This document shows, piece by piece, positions 37,644 to 56,333 of a stretch of DNA of 64,000 bases. Below the pieces are notes generated by a model, which was not told where the DNA came from, did no database searches, and saw nothing but the letters and a program-made list of their open reading frames with translations. How positions within the stretch are numbered: position 1 is the stretch's first letter; every line of letters begins with the position of its first letter. The position numbers and the translations under genes are program-made. The DNA is taken from assembly GCA_015222055.1 (NCBI GenBank), contig JADFUR010000020.1, forward strand, positions 1-64,000, in the 5' to 3' direction. This DNA comes from Bacteroidota bacterium. GTDB lineage: Bacteria; Bacteroidota; Bacteroidia; Bacteroidales; B39-G9.

Positions 37644-38648
37644 ATGTCTAAAATTAAAGTTGGAATAAACGGATTTGGTAGAATCGGAAGAAATGTATTT
37701 AAAATTGCATTAGATAATTCTGAAATTGAGATTATTGGAATAAATGATTTAACTAATACTAAAACTTTAGCACATTTATTAAAGTACGATTCAACACAAG
37801 GAAAATTTGATGGCACAGTAAAATATGACGATGATGGAATAATTGTAAATGGTAAAAAAATTATTGTTTGTGCAGAAAAAAATCCAATTAACATACCTTG
37901 GTCAGTAAATCCGGATTTAGTAGTTGAAGCAACTGGTATTTTCAGAGAAAAAGAAAGTCCAAAAGGAGGTTATGGCGACCACATAAAAAATGGTGCAAAA
38001 AAAGTTATACTTACGGTACCAGCCAAAGACCAAATTGACAACATGATTGTTTTAGGTGTAAACGACGACGAAATTAAAAAATCAGACGTTTGTGTATCAA
38101 ATGCATCATGCACAACCAATTGTTTAGCCCCAGTTGCAAAAGTGCTGAATGATAAATTTGGTATTGTAAACGGATTTATGACAACAATTCACTCATACAC
38201 AAACGACCAAGCAATATTAGATGGTCCTCATTCAGATTTAAGAAGAGGTCGCTCTGCTGCTGTATCTCAAATACCAACAACTACAGGTGCTGCCAGAGCC
38301 GTTGGTAAAGTTATTCCTGCTTTAAAAGGGAAATTAGACGGTATAGCTGTAAGAGTTCCAACCCCAACAGGTTCTTTAGTTGACTTAGTTGTTAATCTTG
38401 AAAAAGAAGCAACTGTTGAGGAAATAAACGCAGCAATGAAAGAAGCTGCAGAAGGTTCAATGAAAGGTGTTTTATCGTATACCGAAGACCCTATTGTTTC
38501 TGTTGACATTATTCACGATAGTCACTCTTCAATTTTTGATGCTCTTTCTACAATGGTTTTAGGAAAAACTGTAAAAATACTTACTTGGTACGACAACGAA
38601 TGGGGATATTCAAACAGAGTTGTTGACTTAATTTCAAAACTTTTCTAA
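37644..38648 (+). CDS. gapA: Glyceraldehyde-3-phosphate dehydrogenase, type I
   Basis: This glycolytic NAD-dependent enzyme converts glyceraldehyde-3-phosphate to 1,3-bisphosphoglycerate. The 334-residue protein is canonical: INGFGRIGRNVFKIAL (NAD-binding), HLLKYDSTQGKF, active-site SNASCTTNCLAPVAKVL with Cys at about residue 154, TTIHSYTNDQAILDGPHSDLRRGR (catalytic His), RVPTPTGSLVDLVV and WYDNEWGYSNRVVDLI. It has its own promoter and a strong terminator, so it is monocistronic. A second, divergent GAPDH is encoded at 48847-50091. Confidence 0.96.
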   Translation: MSKIKVGINGFGRIGRNVFKIALDNSEIEIIGINDLTNTKTLAHLLKYDSTQGKFDGTVKYDDDGIIVNGKKIIVCAEKNPINIPWSVNPDLVVEATGIFREKESPKGGYGDHIKNGAKKVILTVPAKDQIDNMIVLGVNDDEIKKSDVCVSNASCTTNCLAPVAKVLNDKFGIVNGFMTTIHSYTNDQAILDGPHSDLRRGRSAAVSQIPTTTGAARAVGKVIPALKGKLDGIAVRVPTPTGSLVDLVVNLEKEATVEEINAAMKEAAEGSMKGVLSYTEDPIVSVDIIHDSHSSIFDALSTMVLGKTVKILTWYDNEWGYSNRVVDLISKLF

Positions 38649-48846: not shown

Positions 48847-50091
48847 TTACATGTTTTTATCTACATATACAGTAAGTTTACCTAAAGAGTTAACATAGCT
48901 ACCAAATTCATTATCATACCAGCCAAAAATTGTTGCATGAGTAACCGGCATTCTTACATCCTGAGCATTTGTGATGCCAAGATTTTGAAGCATTTTTGCT
49001 GAAATGTCAGTAAATCCGGTACGAGTATGTGTTTCAAATCCTTCAAGAACAACTGCTGCTCTTCTTCCGATTATGTCAGCAGAAACATTTTGCTTATCAG
49101 TATATACCAATAAATCTTTTTGTGAGCCTTGTGCTGCATTTTTATAAATATCATTAATGTAATTTCTGTTTATAAGCGGATCTCCCGATTCTGTAAGAGA
49201 TGTATGAAAAGTAACATTAAGAATTATTAACGAAGCTGTATTAGTCGGAATTCTAATAGAATCAGCCATAAAACCAACACTTTGTATTTCGGGAATAACA
49301 TATTCGAGAGCCTTAGCGGCACCGGTTGAAGTAAGAATAATATTATTAAAAATTGATCGTGATTTTCTTAAATCGCCCTCATTTGCTTTTGGAACAGAAT
49401 CTAATATGCTTTGAGTGCTGGTAGAAGCATGAATGGTTGACATTGAAGCAGTAAGAATATTAGAAGTTCCTTTATTTTCGAGAAGAGGTTTTATCATGTG
49501 AGACAAACCTGTAGTAGTGCAACTTGCAGCTGATATAACATCATGCTTCATAGGATCAAAATCTAAATGATTTATTCCATAAACAAGCATTGCACTATCT
49601 TCTGGCATCTTTAACAAAGAATCTTTAATTTTAAAAGGAGCACTAACAATAACCTTTTCTGCTCCTGCAGCCAAATGACCTCTTACACTGCCTTTTTTAG
49701 TGTCAACAGGCGAAGTAGGATCTTTATAAGCACCTGTACAATCAACCACCAGACGAACTCCTTCTCTTCCCCAATTAATATCTTTCGGATTTCTTTCTTT
49801 ATTAAGTATTTTTACCGGCATACCATTTACTTCAAGCATTCCTTCTTTTTCATCAACAACCTTAATCTTAAAATTGTTTTTGGAATCCCCATACAAAAAT
49901 CTACTCAATTCTCCATACGTAGAATCTGTTTCAATTATGTGAACAACAGCATCAAGGCTTTTACCAATTTCTCGTCCAACATTCACAACAAATCCATCGA
50001 AATGTTTTATAGACAAATGATTCCACAGAGTTAATTTACCTATTCTGCCCAAGCCGTTAATACCTAATAAATTTTTATCTTTAAAGTCCAT
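48847..50091 (-). CDS. Divergent second glyceraldehyde-3-phosphate dehydrogenase
   Basis: This 414-residue GAPDH-fold protein is distinct from gapA. It retains GINGLGRIGKLTLW (NAD-binding), IISAASCTTTGLSHMIKPL-like active-site segment SAASCTTTGLSHM with the catalytic Cys, STIHASTSTQSILDS with the catalytic His, IRIPTNTASLIILNV and IFGWYDNEFGSYVNSLGKL. The canonical C-T-T-N-C has become C-T-T-T-G, the GD-type S-loop residues differ, and several insertions lengthen it by about 80 residues. It may use a different cofactor or substrate, or work in the gluconeogenic direction. It lies 24 bases downstream of the large PPDK-like gene and is almost certainly co-transcribed with it. Confidence 0.85.
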   Translation of the reverse strand: MDFKDKNLLGINGLGRIGKLTLWNHLSIKHFDGFVVNVGREIGKSLDAVVHIIETDSTYGELSRFLYGDSKNNFKIKVVDEKEGMLEVNGMPVKILNKERNPKDINWGREGVRLVVDCTGAYKDPTSPVDTKKGSVRGHLAAGAEKVIVSAPFKIKDSLLKMPEDSAMLVYGINHLDFDPMKHDVISAASCTTTGLSHMIKPLLENKGTSNILTASMSTIHASTSTQSILDSVPKANEGDLRKSRSIFNNIILTSTGAAKALEYVIPEIQSVGFMADSIRIPTNTASLIILNVTFHTSLTESGDPLINRNYINDIYKNAAQGSQKDLLVYTDKQNVSADIIGRRAAVVLEGFETHTRTGFTDISAKMLQNLGITNAQDVRMPVTHATIFGWYDNEFGSYVNSLGKLTVYVDKNM

Positions 50092-50115
50092 AATTATTTA
50101 AAATTTAATTAATTA

Positions 50116-53100
50116 TTAATATTCTTTTTTATTTAATTTATCATACAAAATTTCAGTATTTTCAATAGAATAATTACCCTTGTAAATATTTCCTAAACTT
50201 CCATCTATGGCAATTTCATCCCCTGCTTTAAAAATATGTCCATTTATGCTACATTCTTTTTTAGTTTCGTAAACCAACAATTCTCTACAATTGACAACAC
50301 AAACCTTTCCTAACCTGACAGCAGTAACTGCCGCATGAGATGTTGCACCGCCTTTAGCAGTAAGTAATCCGGCACATTCAAAAATCATTCCTATATCATC
50401 AGGAACAGTGTCTGGTCTAACTAGAATTAAATTTTTTTCAGGATATTTTTCAGCAAAATACTTTAGGTCTTCCATATCAAAAGTTAGAATACCATTTAAA
50501 GCTCCTCCACCAATTCCAATTCCTCTTCCCACTCTTATCATATTTTTCAACAATGAAGAAAAAACATCAATATTTGTATTCTCTCTTATATTTTGATCTC
50601 TTGTTTGAAGAATATATAAATCGTCAGGGTTTTCCGACTCAAAAGTAAACTCAATTTCTTGATGACTAAAGCCATGATTTTCTGTCATTTCTTTAGCAAT
50701 TCGATAAACTTTTTTATAAATAAGTGGAAAAGCTTCTTGCAAAGAAGTACCTTCTAATTTCAATTGCTTACGTTGAGTCTTTCCTATTGGGAGAGCATGA
50801 ACAAGACCTGATACTATATCTTCACCCTGTCCACACAAAGTAAAGTCTCCATAAAGATGAACCCCAGGTCTGTGTCTGTTTGGATTATGAGTAAATACAA
50901 CACCTGTTCCTGAAGTTTCATAAAGGTTTCCTAAAATCATTTTTTGAATAATAACGGCTGTTCCCCACTCATCTGCTATCTGAAGATATTCTCGATATAC
51001 TCTTGCCCTCTTAGATGACCAAGAATCTAAAACAATAGAAATAGTTTTCTTTAACTGCAAAAACACATCTTCTTCAAACTTAATATTATGTTGTTTGAGA
51101 ACATTTTTGTATGCATGGGCTATAGTTTTGATTTGTTCTGGTTTTAAATTAATTTTTTTCTTAACATTATATTTTAATTTATAATCAGAAATTATTTTAT
51201 CAAAAACATCTCGGTGTATACCCATTGACATTCCCCAACTTTGCAATAACCTACGATAACAATCCCAAGCACACCAAGCATAACATTTTTGTTTGCTGAG
51301 ATTTTCTGCTATTTCTTCGTTCATCCCTACATTAAGGAAGGTATCCATGGCTCCCGGCATAGAAATTACACCTCCTGATCGTACAGAAAACAACAAAGGA
51401 TTTTTAGGGTTACCAAACTGCTTTCCTGTAATTTTTTCTATTCGCTTTATTTGTTTTTTTATCAAAGCATCCATTTCTTGTGAAAGGTAAGAATGAAATG
51501 CAACAGCTTTTCTCCTTCTGAAAACTTCAGTAGTAAGAACAAATCCCGGAGGTACCGGAAATCCAGCAAGATATAATTTCTTTAGAAAAAAAGCTTTTGA
51601 CCCAAGAAATATTTGGTTATCTGTTAATAAATTTTCTTTATTAAAAGGATTAATAATCAAGTTCGAATTATATGACATAACATCGTTAATAATTTCGGGA
51701 GTAAAATTATCAACCATATTATTTAAAGAATTTAAAATATTTGAAATAAAATTATCTAAAGCTTTTAACAAAAATGCATTAGAGATAATATCCCTATAAA
51801 ACTCTTCCGATTTTTTTATAATCAGCGTCCTCTTTTCTTTTTCTAAAGCTTTCTTATCAATCTTAAAAATCTGAGGAATAACCACTCCTAAAGAATATTC
51901 ATACGAGCGTATAAAATATTTATTAATTATCTCTTTTATGCTAACAGCCATAAACTGAAATATGTTATGATACTGACTGAGAGAAAAACTGGCTGAAGTA
52001 AGACTGTATTTAAACATTTGCAGGTTAGAATCAAATCCCTGATTTACAATGCCATCTAATTTCATACCCTGCTTAAAATATTCTAGAACAGTATAAATCT
52101 GATTTAATGTTTTTGCAGAAATATAATCTAGGTATATTTCTTCAATAATTTTTTCCATTAGCCTTGAAGCAACTCTTTCAAGTCTAAAAACATGCCCCAA
52201 TGCTTCGAATTTAACTTCTCTGTACATACCATACATCGAAGGAATACCAAATGCAATATGTCGTTTATGATAAATATTTTCCCAGCCATCTGTAATATCC
52301 GAGCTAAAAATAATATTATTGAGTTTTTCGATATATTGATAAACAATTTTTAAAGATTTATGGTAATCTTTATGGTCAAGAGAATTTCGTAAAACATTAA
52401 TTTCTTCTGGTTTAAAAAAATTATACTTACTAAGAACACTTAAAATATTTATAGTATCAAAGGAATACTTTTCTCTAAGCAAAACATATAAGTTACAAAC
52501 ACATTTGAATCTTTTCTTGTCAAGTTCATTATTGCTAGGATATTTTTCAAGAATGGCATCCAATTTCTCTTTTTCAAATTCTAAAAATTTTTCTGGCCTA
52601 CATTTATATTTCTTACACAAATCGTTTACCATTTTATGAACAGGTGCATACCACCTTCCATTAATATCAATTGATTCGTAAACATCTTGTGGTAAAAATC
52701 TTTTTAATGTATTTAAATCTCCATCGTACCAAAAATTAAAAACTTTTTTTACAATATCTATAAGAGTGTTATTACTCTCAACATGTACTTGTTTTCTCAA
52801 AAAATGTAATAATTTGTCATTTCTATGAGACAATTCGTCCATAGTGGTAGTAACCTTTCTGATATCACCTTCGGCTCCTATTTCATTAAAATAAACAGGA
52901 AAAATTCTTGTGAGTTGTTTTACTTTTTGAAAATGAGGGACAATATTAGAATTTAATATTTTTGTAACATCTCTCTGAAAAAGGTCAGTATCAGAAATAT
53001 AAATACCTCCCAATCGAAGGTTTACAATAAGTGAAGACAATAGTTTGACAGGTATTGATGAAGCAGTTTCTATTAATTCAAGCCATACTCTAATATTTTT

Positions 53101-54249
53101 AATATGGTTTTGGTTAACCTGCATCTGCCAATTATCCTTCATATAAACTACTCCTGGAGTTTCAAAACCAAAATCTATAAGTTTTTTTTCAAAATAATTC
53201 ACTCTGAATTTATCTTCAGAATCATCAAGTTCAATAATTTTCTTCCCTAGCGTACTTATACAATCCAGAATTGCAGAAATATGCTCCTTTTTAAATTCTT
53301 TAAATAATACAAAAATCTTATCAATATATTGAAATATCTGATTTAGCTCTATTTCATTAATAACATTTTTAAGCAAGTTGTTAATATCTCCTATAATTCT
53401 ATCTTTCAAATTATCGAGTCCCTCAAGATGGAGAATATAAAAGGTATAATAAAATTTTTCTCTAAATGTTTCAAATTTATTCGAAAAATAACGAAAAGAA
53501 TTAGCTATATCATTAAATGATGGGATCTTTTCCACAATATCCTCACTTGACTTTGCTTGCTCAAGTTCTTTTTTTAATTTTTTATAGTATTGCTTTCCAA
53601 ATTCGGAAACTGCTTCAGTATAATCATGCTCAAATAACGATTCTTTTTCTTTATACCATTTTTCAATTTTAGATGTATCTTCCCAAAAAGCAATATTGTA
53701 TTCGAAAACTTTTTTAGTTAAAGAAAACAACATTTCTTTAAATTCCGGTATTTTAGATACTATTACAGTATGTTTTTTAAAATAAACTGAGCTGTGAATA
53801 AAACATTCTTTGTTATTTTCAATACTTTTATTTAAAACATTAAGTAATTCTATTACAACTGATTTGTATACTACATTACTCTCGCAAATCAACTCAATAA
53901 ACTCTAGAATAGTCCTTACAAGTTGTTCTTTTAAATTCACTTTAATTTTTTTGTGAAACAAATCACGAAAAATATCTGTAAGTACAAGAAAAGCTTCTTC
54001 TGCACAGTCTAAAGTAATATAGAACCAAAAATCTTTTAAAACAATTTTGCGTAGTTCGTCAACTACAAAACTATAATTTGAATAAGGATGGTAAATTTCT
54101 TTAATACATTCTTCAGTTCTTTTATGAATTCCCCAATGGCTTTTTGAAAGTTCAATAAACGCTTTATACTTATCAGGGATGGTAAATTTCACTTTCCTTG
54201 TTTCTGCCAAATTTACTTCAAGGGCTTCTGATTTAAGTTGTTCTTTCAT
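50116..54249 (-). CDS. Giant PPDK-like protein: unknown N-terminal region, ATP-grasp and phosphohistidine domains, no PEP barrel
   Basis: This protein has 1377 residues. Residues from about 875 to 1260 match the nucleotide-binding domain of pyruvate phosphate dikinase: LGSKAFFLKKLYLAGFPVPPGF, LLFSVRSGGVISMPGAMDTF, CAWDCYRRLLQSWG, ADEWGTAVIIQKMILGN, GTGVVFTHNP, CGQGEDIVSG and a final LYILQTRDQN. Residues about 1280-1360 match the swivelling phosphohistidine domain, with GGATSHAAV (His near 1305) and KAGDEIAIDGSLGNIY. The C-terminal PEP/pyruvate TIM barrel of PPDK is absent: the protein stops 72 residues after the His. The first about 870 residues are largely helical, Lys/Glu/Phe-rich, without signal peptide or a family I recognise. 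It may phosphorylate an acceptor bound by the N-terminal region. Operon with a second GAPDH. Confidence 0.8.
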   Translation of the reverse strand: MKEQLKSEALEVNLAETRKVKFTIPDKYKAFIELSKSHWGIHKRTEECIKEIYHPYSNYSFVVDELRKIVLKDFWFYITLDCAEEAFLVLTDIFRDLFHKKIKVNLKEQLVRTILEFIELICESNVVYKSVVIELLNVLNKSIENNKECFIHSSVYFKKHTVIVSKIPEFKEMLFSLTKKVFEYNIAFWEDTSKIEKWYKEKESLFEHDYTEAVSEFGKQYYKKLKKELEQAKSSEDIVEKIPSFNDIANSFRYFSNKFETFREKFYYTFYILHLEGLDNLKDRIIGDINNLLKNVINEIELNQIFQYIDKIFVLFKEFKKEHISAILDCISTLGKKIIELDDSEDKFRVNYFEKKLIDFGFETPGVVYMKDNWQMQVNQNHIKNIRVWLELIETASSIPVKLLSSLIVNLRLGGIYISDTDLFQRDVTKILNSNIVPHFQKVKQLTRIFPVYFNEIGAEGDIRKVTTTMDELSHRNDKLLHFLRKQVHVESNNTLIDIVKKVFNFWYDGDLNTLKRFLPQDVYESIDINGRWYAPVHKMVNDLCKKYKCRPEKFLEFEKEKLDAILEKYPSNNELDKKRFKCVCNLYVLLREKYSFDTINILSVLSKYNFFKPEEINVLRNSLDHKDYHKSLKIVYQYIEKLNNIIFSSDITDGWENIYHKRHIAFGIPSMYGMYREVKFEALGHVFRLERVASRLMEKIIEEIYLDYISAKTLNQIYTVLEYFKQGMKLDGIVNQGFDSNLQMFKYSLTSASFSLSQYHNIFQFMAVSIKEIINKYFIRSYEYSLGVVIPQIFKIDKKALEKEKRTLIIKKSEEFYRDIISNAFLLKALDNFISNILNSLNNMVDNFTPEIINDVMSYNSNLIINPFNKENLLTDNQIFLGSKAFFLKKLYLAGFPVPPGFVLTTEVFRRRKAVAFHSYLSQEMDALIKKQIKRIEKITGKQFGNPKNPLLFSVRSGGVISMPGAMDTFLNVGMNEEIAENLSKQKCYAWCAWDCYRRLLQSWGMSMGIHRDVFDKIISDYKLKYNVKKKINLKPEQIKTIAHAYKNVLKQHNIKFEEDVFLQLKKTISIVLDSWSSKRARVYREYLQIADEWGTAVIIQKMILGNLYETSGTGVVFTHNPNRHRPGVHLYGDFTLCGQGEDIVSGLVHALPIGKTQRKQLKLEGTSLQEAFPLIYKKVYRIAKEMTENHGFSHQEIEFTFESENPDDLYILQTRDQNIRENTNIDVFSSLLKNMIRVGRGIGIGGGALNGILTFDMEDLKYFAEKYPEKNLILVRPDTVPDDIGMIFECAGLLTAKGGATSHAAVTAVRLGKVCVVNCRELLVYETKKECSINGHIFKAGDEIAIDGSLGNIYKGNYSIENTEILYDKLNKKEY

Positions 54250-54618: not shown

Positions 54619-54663
54619 AACTATAAAATTAGTTGTATAACTATAAGTTTAGTTGTATATTTG
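54619..54663 (+). promoter_or_regulatory. Double BlaI-type operator overlapping the blaI promoter
   Basis: Two tandem 20-bp units (54619-54638 and 54639-54658) differ at 2 positions. Each contains an imperfect dyad of the form ACTATAA..TTAGT, the type of site bound by BlaI/MecI dimers. The -7 element TATATTTG (54656-54663) overlaps the end of the second unit and ends 4 bases before the blaI ATG. Binding of BlaI here would block its own promoter. Confidence 0.7.
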
Positions 54664-54667
54664 TTGT

Positions 54668-55054
54668 ATGAAAGAATTAACAAAGGCAGAAGAACAAATA
54701 ATTCAAATTCTCTGGGAAGAAAAAAAGGGATTTGTAAAAAACATTATTGAACATTTGCCAGAACCAAAGCCTGCATACAATACAGTATCTACAATAATCC
54801 GTATTTTAGAAAAAAAAGGTTTTGTTTCTCACAAGGCTTACGGTAAAACTTATGAGTATTATCCTTTAATTAGCAAAAAAAAATATACAAAAGTTTACTT
54901 CAAAAATTTTGTTCACAATTATTTCAGCAATTCCTTTCAACAAATGGTTTCTTTCTTTGCAAAAGAAGAGGATTTATCTTTAAGCGAAATGGAGGAAATG
55001 AAAAATATTATTGAAGAAGAAATTAATAAACAAAAAATTAATTCTCATGAATAG
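54668..55054 (+). CDS. blaI: BlaI/MecI/CopY-family transcriptional repressor
   Basis: This 128-residue repressor has an N-terminal winged helix (ELTKAEEQIIQILWEEKKGFVKNIIEHL, then PAYNTVSTIIRILEKKGFVSHKAYGKTYEYYPL) and a C-terminal dimerisation helix pair. In this family the paired membrane metalloprotease relieves repression on a stimulus. ATG 54668 is chosen over an upstream in-frame TTG because homology begins at MKELTKAEEQ. The -7 element ends 4 bases upstream, so the mRNA may be almost leaderless. It overlaps the M56 gene by 8 bases. Confidence 0.92.
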   Translation: MKELTKAEEQIIQILWEEKKGFVKNIIEHLPEPKPAYNTVSTIIRILEKKGFVSHKAYGKTYEYYPLISKKKYTKVYFKNFVHNYFSNSFQQMVSFFAKEEDLSLSEMEEMKNIIEEEINKQKINSHE

Positions 55055-56333
55055 TATCTCAATTTATTTAATAGAAACAGCTATTTGCTTAGTCCTTTTC
55101 TATTCAATTTATAAAATTTTTCTTCAAAAAGAAACATTGTTTAAATTTAATAGATACTATATAATGGCAACAGTATTACTATCATTTATTATTCCGGCTT
55201 TAAACTTTAGCTACAAAGGAAGCTCAGATGTAATAATTTATAACAATGTGTTAAATGCTGTTGTTATTAGTGCAGATGGAATAGAACAAATTGTTAGCAA
55301 TAAATTAAGCACACAACTAATACTAACTTATTTATATGCCTTTGGAGTAGTTTTTTTCACATTGCGTTTAGCATTTCAAATATTTCAATTACTTATTATT
55401 ATAAAAAAAGGTAAAATTAATCACACCAATAACTTGCGATTTGTAATTACAAATAAAAATATTTCTCCATTTACTTTTTTTAACATTATTTTTCTGAACA
55501 ATTCCGGAATATCAGAAAAAAACATGGAGAAAATAATAGCTCACGAACATGCTCATGTTAAACAACTTCATTTTATTGATTTAATCATTTTGGAGTTATT
55601 AACAATTGCTCAGTGGTTTAATCCATTTATTTGGAAGTATAGAAAATCGCTGAAAGAAGTACACGAATACCTTGCCGACGAAGACGTTCTGAAACAGGGT
55701 TATGATTCTATTAACTATCAAAAGTTAATATTTAATTCAATTGCAGGTACTAAAAATTATGAACTTACCAGCAATTTTGATTGTTCACTTACTAAAAAAA
55801 GATTAATTATGATGACAAAAATAAAAACACCTAAATGGGCAAAACTCAAAGCCTTGGTATTATTGCCAATTGTTGCACTTTTGGTTTTAGCTTTTGCTTG
55901 CTCTGAAAAAAATGAAGAAGCAAAAATTACTGAAAAAACTGGGAAAATTATTATTGAAAAAGCTTCTTCAATAACAAAATCTTCTGATTCGGTTTATTAT
56001 AAGGTAGATGAAATGCCTGAATTTGAAGGTGGAACTAATGAATTAATAAGATTTATTGCTAAAAACACAAAATACCCAAAACAAGCAAAAGAAGACGGTA
56101 TTCAAGGAAAAGTATATGTTTCATTCATTGTTAATAAAACCGGTAAAGTTGTTGATGTAAAAGCATTACAAACCAGAATGTTAACTGATAAAGATAAAAA
56201 ATTAGAAGCTCCTTTACTCGAAGAAGAAGCTGTAAGAGTAATCTCTTTAATACCAGACTGGAAACCAGGAAAAATGAAAGGGGAAGCAGTAAACGTTCAA
56301 TTTACTATTCCAATAAATTTTAAGCTCAATTAA
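55047..56333 (+). CDS. BlaR1-like M56 membrane metallopeptidase fused to a TonB C-terminal domain
   Basis: This 428-residue inner-membrane protein has three N-terminal helices, a zinc-protease motif IIAHEHAHVKQLHFIDLIILE (HExxH, about residues 168-172) with the downstream Glu in EYLADEDVL, and a fourth helix (LKALVLLPIVALLVLAFAC, about 272-290). The periplasmic C-terminus (about 325-428: MPEFEGGTNELIRFIAKNTKYPKQA ... IPINFKLN) is a TonB-C/energy-transducer-like domain instead of the beta-lactam-binding domain of BlaR1. The likely role is to sense an envelope signal and cleave or release BlaI. ATG 55047 is chosen because it overlaps the blaI end and begins a first helix. Confidence 0.9.
   Translation: MNSISIYLIETAICLVLFYSIYKIFLQKETLFKFNRYYIMATVLLSFIIPALNFSYKGSSDVIIYNNVLNAVVISADGIEQIVSNKLSTQLILTYLYAFGVVFFTLRLAFQIFQLLIIIKKGKINHTNNLRFVITNKNISPFTFFNIIFLNNSGISEKNMEKIIAHEHAHVKQLHFIDLIILELLTIAQWFNPFIWKYRKSLKEVHEYLADEDVLKQGYDSINYQKLIFNSIAGTKNYELTSNFDCSLTKKRLIMMTKIKTPKWAKLKALVLLPIVALLVLAFACSEKNEEAKITEKTGKIIIEKASSITKSSDSVYYKVDEMPEFEGGTNELIRFIAKNTKYPKQAKEDGIQGKVYVSFIVNKTGKVVDVKALQTRMLTDKDKKLEAPLLEEEAVRVISLIPDWKPGKMKGEAVNVQFTIPINFKLN

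Follow-up and report, generated by a model that had tools for sequence, protein, structure and literature searches.

A putative PPDK-like dikinase with an acceptor domain of its own, encoded beside GAPDH

In a stretch of 64,000 nucleotides from a Bacteroidota genome (contig JADFUR010000020.1, positions 1 to 64,000; in the following called the window) we analyzed a gene for a protein of 1377 residues. Judged by its sequence, this protein is best explained as a dikinase with three domains that belongs to the PPDK/PEP-synthase/RPH superfamily (PEP, phosphoenolpyruvate) and possesses an acceptor domain of its own, and its gene is followed by a paralogue of glyceraldehyde-3-phosphate dehydrogenase (GAPDH). 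Our reading, an active dikinase with a novel acceptor domain and a link to GAPDH, has in our estimate a probability of about 0.6. That this dikinase variant forms a widespread family tied to GAPDH is new here, and no description of the pair was found in the literature searched, most subscription papers being outside the reach of that search.

A PPDK-like half behind a helical N-terminal region

A sequence-only reading of this DNA had described a frame of 1377 residues with PPDK-type ATP-grasp and phosphohistidine domains and without the catalytic PEP/pyruvate barrel, and Pfam, NCBIfam and PDB searches agree with this domain assignment. Pfam places PPDK_N at residues 883–1151 (7.9e-28) and the mobile (His) domain of the PEP-utilizers at residues 1271–1353 (2.2e-16), and in a PDB sequence search PPDK from C. 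symbiosum (1kbl) aligns with residues 881–1219 and 1239–1364 only. The motif GGATSHAAV is located at residues 1300–1308 with H1305 as the expected phosphohistidine. A Pfam scan of the 1377 residues found no barrel (PEP-utilizers_C, PF02896), and the NCBIfam PPDK model TIGR01828 scores 366 bits where its cut-off is 843, so that only part of PPDK is matched. A barrel supplied in trans by a neighbouring gene could be ruled out, as none is adjacent at the loci examined; all 19 of the 19 dikinase-bearing genomes encode a PEP barrel elsewhere, nearly always in a frame of PPDK length (~880–990 aa), and the window's genome encodes an ordinary PPDK of 912 aa elsewhere. As full-length homologues with ~45–57% identity come from several phyla and the order of N-terminal 870 residues, ATP-grasp, His domain and stop is common to the complete family members, the architecture is more than chance.

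Using the sequence alignment with 1kbl, the residues of the dikinase were put into PPDK numbering. K885, R957, R1000, E1200, Q1215 and R1217 of the ATP-grasp domain correspond to K22, R92, R135, E323, Q335 and R337, E1198 occupies the position of D321 with Glu for Asp, and T1115 and H1305 align with T253 and H455, presumably all with the catalytic roles that these residues have in PPDK. Apart from the T253 position, the mapped catalytic residues are kept in 91 near and all 23 distant members; those of the ATP-grasp domain are retained by clades A, B and D, and H1305 is present in every aligned sequence that covers its stretch. From these intact residues we infer that the dikinase is likely to be catalytically active. 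An AlphaFold model of residues 178–1377 with a pLDDT (predicted local distance difference test) of 85 matches 1kbl in Foldseek at E 1.5e-31 and 33% identity. PPDK and the dikinase thus share ATP-grasp and phosphohistidine swivel domain in the same order, at ~33% identity and with the same catalytic residues, but the dikinase has no barrel, carries a helical region of 870 residues before the ATP-grasp domain and ends with the swivel domain. PPDK uses inorganic phosphate (Pi) and PEP synthase uses water. The 366 bits for TIGR01828 compare with 71 bits for PEP synthase (NCBIfam), and by this score the ATP half is PPDK-like, with Pi as its predicted substrate, and not PEP-synthase-like.

For residues 1–870 nothing significant was found in Pfam, NCBIfam or the PDB sequences (including a profile search), and Foldseek against the PDB returned only generic HEAT/ARM-like solenoids with TM 0.07–0.20 among the 50 matches listed, in line with the earlier statement that this region matches nothing known. 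L20, AP5B1 and DUF3819 were rejected as its identity, these matches being weak, at chance level and different between members. The AlphaFold model of residues 1–880 (pLDDT 83.5, pTM 0.73) consists nearly entirely of helices. Comparing the near clades with the distant Desulfobacteria-class clade, block 351–500 is 52% and block 641–790 39% identical, next to 45% for the ATP-grasp domain and 16–27% for the remainder of residues 1–870. No internal duplication linking the two blocks was found with hhalign. In total 101 residues of the N-terminal region, many of them charged, are near-invariant at ~30% identity. Conserved in block 351–500 are D420, T421, D422, IGAEG (457–461), R464, D471, E472, R476, H482, R485, K486, Q487, H489, E491 and N494. 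In block 641–790 the loop WENIYHKRHIAFGIPSMYG (residues 656–674) is a candidate mobile active-site loop in the model, since it is near-invariant and yet low in pLDDT. The tail of residues 1–18 is also conserved (near-invariant S7, A9, L10 and N13) and poorly folded in the model. We regard the conserved blocks as a putative substrate site. With no characterised domain in this region and no adjacent barrel gene, the earlier proposal of a dikinase for an acceptor bound by the N-terminal region gains support.

An ATP-grasp domain and a swivel His combined with a non-PEP acceptor domain are found in RPH (PMC4844700) and in the two-component dikinases HpeHI, CreHI and PpsAB (PMC12167813). The dikinase appears to share this general architecture, its putative acceptor domain included. 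It differs from RPH in its PPDK-like ATP half (26 bits vs 999 for the RPH model NF041857 of NCBIfam) and in its acceptor domain, which is N-terminal, much larger and unmatched to the RIF-binding domain; between ATP-grasp and His the alignment with 1kbl leaves a linker of ~20 residues, and no domain of the RIF-binding type was found there. A large N-terminal acceptor region with a His relay is also present in the plant glucan, water dikinases (GWD/PWD); GWD has its His domain ahead of the ATP domain. In contrast to these enzymes, no carbohydrate-binding module (CBM45/CBM20) was found in the dikinase, as Pfam detected no such module in eight family members.

GAPDH genes beside the dikinase

The carriers are anaerobic bacteria that are only distantly related, and a GAPDH gene is nearly always found next to their dikinase gene. 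In the window a GAPDH of 414 aa starts 24 bases downstream of the dikinase on the same strand, and both genes are likely to share one transcript. A GAPDH of ~415 aa directly downstream on the same strand is also found at most clade-A loci of Bacteroidales and Clostridia and, in the class of strain NaphS2, at all 25 loci that could be resolved, with identities as low as ~30% (the remaining three of the 28 loci stop at a contig end, and three of the 25 GAPDHs were masked by antisense open reading frames and found with tblastn). At locus L022 the downstream long GAPDH overlaps the dikinase by a few bases, and in one genome (G454) it lies on a different contig. Among 295 genomes of the window's order the long GAPDH occurs in 14, from nine families, and all 14 also carry the dikinase, which corresponds to ~1e-17 in a hypergeometric estimate ignoring relatedness. 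Moreover, the distances of dikinase and GAPDH partner correlate (r = 0.88, 0 of 5000 permutations).

Clade-B Bacteroidales without the long GAPDH mostly have an ordinary gapA next to the dikinase in divergent orientation, no more than 600 bp away at 49 loci, and 15 further loci of Bacteroidales without the long form carry gapA within about 8 kb of the dikinase. The divergent GAPDH is no special paralogue, as the tree places it as ordinary gapA. At four loci (L202, L205, L208 and L211) the dikinase has a GAPDH gene on either side, all three on one strand; at L209 the upstream GAPDH is present and the other side ends with the contig. A few loci in these neighbour counts stem from genomes that were reached twice. 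Among the neighbour clusters inspected no recurrent neighbour other than GAPDH shows an evident link, and we consider it very likely that the dikinase works functionally with GAPDH. This neighbour is the strongest clue to the function; the sequence-only reading had missed it and is extended by it.

The long GAPDHs form one clade with a support of 1.0. Altogether the partner GAPDHs fall into three lineages, with ~37% identity between the long and the ordinary form; an ordinary GAPDH of 334 aa is also encoded in the window (37644–38648). The long proteins (GAPDH-C) keep the catalytic Cys149 and His176 and Thr179, Thr208, Gly209 and Arg231 of both phosphate sites. Asp32, which favours NAD over NADP, is missing from the 414-aa GAPDH and its relatives, and nearly all of them have Thr for Asn152. 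These residues suggest that GAPDH-C is likely to be catalytically competent with a changed cofactor preference, NADP-linked or otherwise. The upstream GAPDHs (~335 aa) of L202, L205, L208, L209 and L211 form a separate clade, in which Cys149 and His176 are kept and Ser replaces Gly209, often also Thr208, of the inorganic phosphate site; they may be non-phosphorylating or of altered substrate.

Distribution of the family and layout of the locus

A collection scan confirmed 301 relatives, 80 of them being kept, from Bacteroidales, Deltaproteobacteria including strain NaphS2, and metagenome-assembled genomes of Chlorobiota, Calditrichota and Clostridia. Rumen and sediment Bacteroidales as well as relatives of sulfate reducers are among the carriers. 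The distribution in the window's order is patchy (25 of 295 genomes), and within this sample the dikinase is missing from the only other genome listed for the window's genus and from both of those listed for its family. In the class of NaphS2 it is present in 35 of 85 genomes, mostly as a second clade with an N-terminal part of ~30% identity. As the closest relatives of both the window's dikinase and its GAPDH partner are deltaproteobacterial, the pair seems to have been transferred as a unit.

One deltaproteobacterial genome has two dikinase–GAPDH pairs on separate contigs (L065 on G353:C151 and L247 on G353:C214). In genome G010 the dikinase is split over contigs (L103, 11212–11981, and L004) with the N-terminal piece in two frames near residue 84, which is either an assembly error or a decaying copy. 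Many carriers of the NaphS2 class (G352, G353, G642, G643 and others) have only a divergent, longer phosphoglycerate kinase (PGK) in frames of ~436–485 aa (E ~1e-75). Directly after the pair L022, L065 and L247 of the NaphS2 group encode what reads as a dynamin-like membrane GTPase of ~510 aa. Divergent from the window's dikinase lie a MecI/BlaI-type repressor and then a BlaR1-type M56 peptidase ending in a TonB C-terminal domain (54653–56333). A defence system was rejected, as PADLOC gave no match. The features of the locus are listed in Table 1.

Table 1: Positions of the dikinase, its domains and the adjacent GAPDH gene in the window.
Feature	Position	Strand	Remark
Dikinase gene, whole	50116..54249	(-)	1377 aa, ATG start, GAPDH-associated
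Residues 1–870, all-alpha, proposed acceptor-binding part	51640..54249	(-)	without family match; AlphaFold; Foldseek
Residues 351–500, block with the strongest conservation in the protein, candidate acceptor site	52750..53199	(-)	clade identity comparison
Residues 641–790, second conserved block	51880..52329	(-)	conservation and AlphaFold pLDDT
Residues 880–1219, PPDK-type ATP-grasp domain	50593..51612	(-)	Pfam, PDB sequence match, Foldseek
Residues 1240–1364, phosphohistidine swivel domain	50158..50532	(-)	Pfam, PDB sequence match, Foldseek
H1305 codon	50335-50337	(-)	expected phosphohistidine
Gap, dikinase stop to GAPDH ATG, 24 bases	50092..50115	(-)	
414-aa GAPDH paralogue (GAPDH-C)	48847..50091	(-)	proposed dedicated partner gene

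Proposed reaction and competing explanations

In analogy to PPDK, RPH and HpeHI the natural reading is that phosphate travels from ATP via the phosphohistidine to an acceptor on residues 1–870. ATP and, as in PPDK, Pi would bind to the ATP-grasp domain and H1305 on the swivel domain would accept one phosphoryl group, leaving AMP and pyrophosphate (PPi), so that the first half-reaction would read ATP + Pi -> AMP + PPi + phospho-His. The swivel domain would then dock on the helical region and pass the phosphate to the acceptor at blocks 351–500 and 641–790. Each step may be reversible, and ATP could also be made from AMP and PPi.

The acceptor should belong to the GAPDH step, and our first choice, a tentative one, is the couple 3-phosphoglycerate (3PG)/1,3-bisphosphoglycerate (1,3-BPG). 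The reaction would be 3PG + ATP + Pi <-> 1,3-BPG + AMP + PPi and would give the adjacent GAPDH a PPi-linked analogue of PGK to work with. On textbook free energies this reaction is near +4 kJ/mol and freely reversible, and sulfate activation in sulfate reducers yields AMP and PPi. We prefer this acceptor because such a function is the classical partner beside gap, because the reaction is near equilibrium and because AMP and PPi arise from sulfate activation. The dikinase resembles PGK of the classical gap-pgk operons in its place beside gap and in the proposed acceptor, but it is an unrelated protein and PGK is also encoded in the same genomes.

Several observations weigh against this picture. 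PGK is present in every carrier among 60 relatives and, in two further sets of carriers, in 19 of 20 and in 15 of 18, so that growth does not require a second route between 3PG and 1,3-BPG; a replacement of PGK as sole explanation is thereby ruled out, and the dikinase would be an additional, PPi-linked route. Carriers and non-carriers cannot be told apart by a membrane pyrophosphatase, which 18 of 19 of the former and 16 of 19 of the latter possess, and a link to the pyrophosphatase type was therefore dropped. Within the ATP half the position of PPDK S262 is not conserved, and at that of T253 the near clades have Thr or Ser and the distant clade has Ala or Ser, which leaves the use of Pi instead of water uncertain. 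No GAPDH is adjacent at four loci, namely L073, L095, L215 and L025 (identical to L101). Finally, one would not usually expect a small-molecule site in a helical N-terminus of this size, which would be suitable for binding a protein as well.

The linkage to GAPDH would be explained equally well by another acceptor at the triose level, if D-glyceraldehyde were converted to glyceraldehyde-3-phosphate, dihydroxyacetone phosphorylated, or phosphoglycerate made from glycerate, any of which would supply the GAPDH step or draw from it; this has some chance of being correct, even if no recurrent transporter, aldolase or glycerate gene appears in the neighbour clusters inspected. Rather unlikely in our view is a protein dikinase whose helical region holds GAPDH or a GAPDH complex and whose phosphohistidine phosphorylates it, regulating the flux. 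The large, all-helical residues 1–870 with protein-binding solenoids as their Foldseek matches, the conserved but poorly folded tail 1–18, which could bind a partner, and the evolutionary rates closely coupled to those of GAPDH-C would fit such an enzyme; however, the candidate site is near-invariant although the GAPDHs paired with it come from three lineages, and both near-invariant blocks are rich in Arg, Lys, His, Asp and Glu as for a small phosphorylated ligand. An acceptor unrelated to GAPDH chemistry, with the linkage as shared co-expression with central metabolism, is improbable: it would account for the few carriers without an adjacent GAPDH, and lepA or mutL-miaA are also locally shared neighbours, but a GAPDH paralogue restricted to carriers (14 of 14 in the order sample) in several gene arrangements goes far beyond shared synteny. 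A degenerate, non-catalytic PPDK paralogue is suggested by the missing barrel and is very improbable, as members of only ~30% identity still retain the mapped residues of the ATP-grasp and phosphohistidine domains, along with near-invariant N-terminal blocks.

In its complete form our proposal is a PPi-linked phosphoglycerate dikinase with a new all-alpha acceptor fold, which forms a dedicated pair with a special GAPDH in hundreds of species and lets the triose stage run partly on AMP and PPi; we put this forward as possible, but doubtful in its entirety. The pairing with GAPDH narrows the acceptor candidates to a short list. If the reading holds, a large family labelled by sequence tools only as partial PPDK would represent a new kind of dikinase, and an acceptor domain of no known fold would be tied to one of the best-studied metabolic steps. 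If the acceptor is indeed 3PG/1,3-BPG, the dikinase would be an undescribed enzyme of central metabolism with which the triose stage of glycolysis and gluconeogenesis could partly be run on AMP and PPi.

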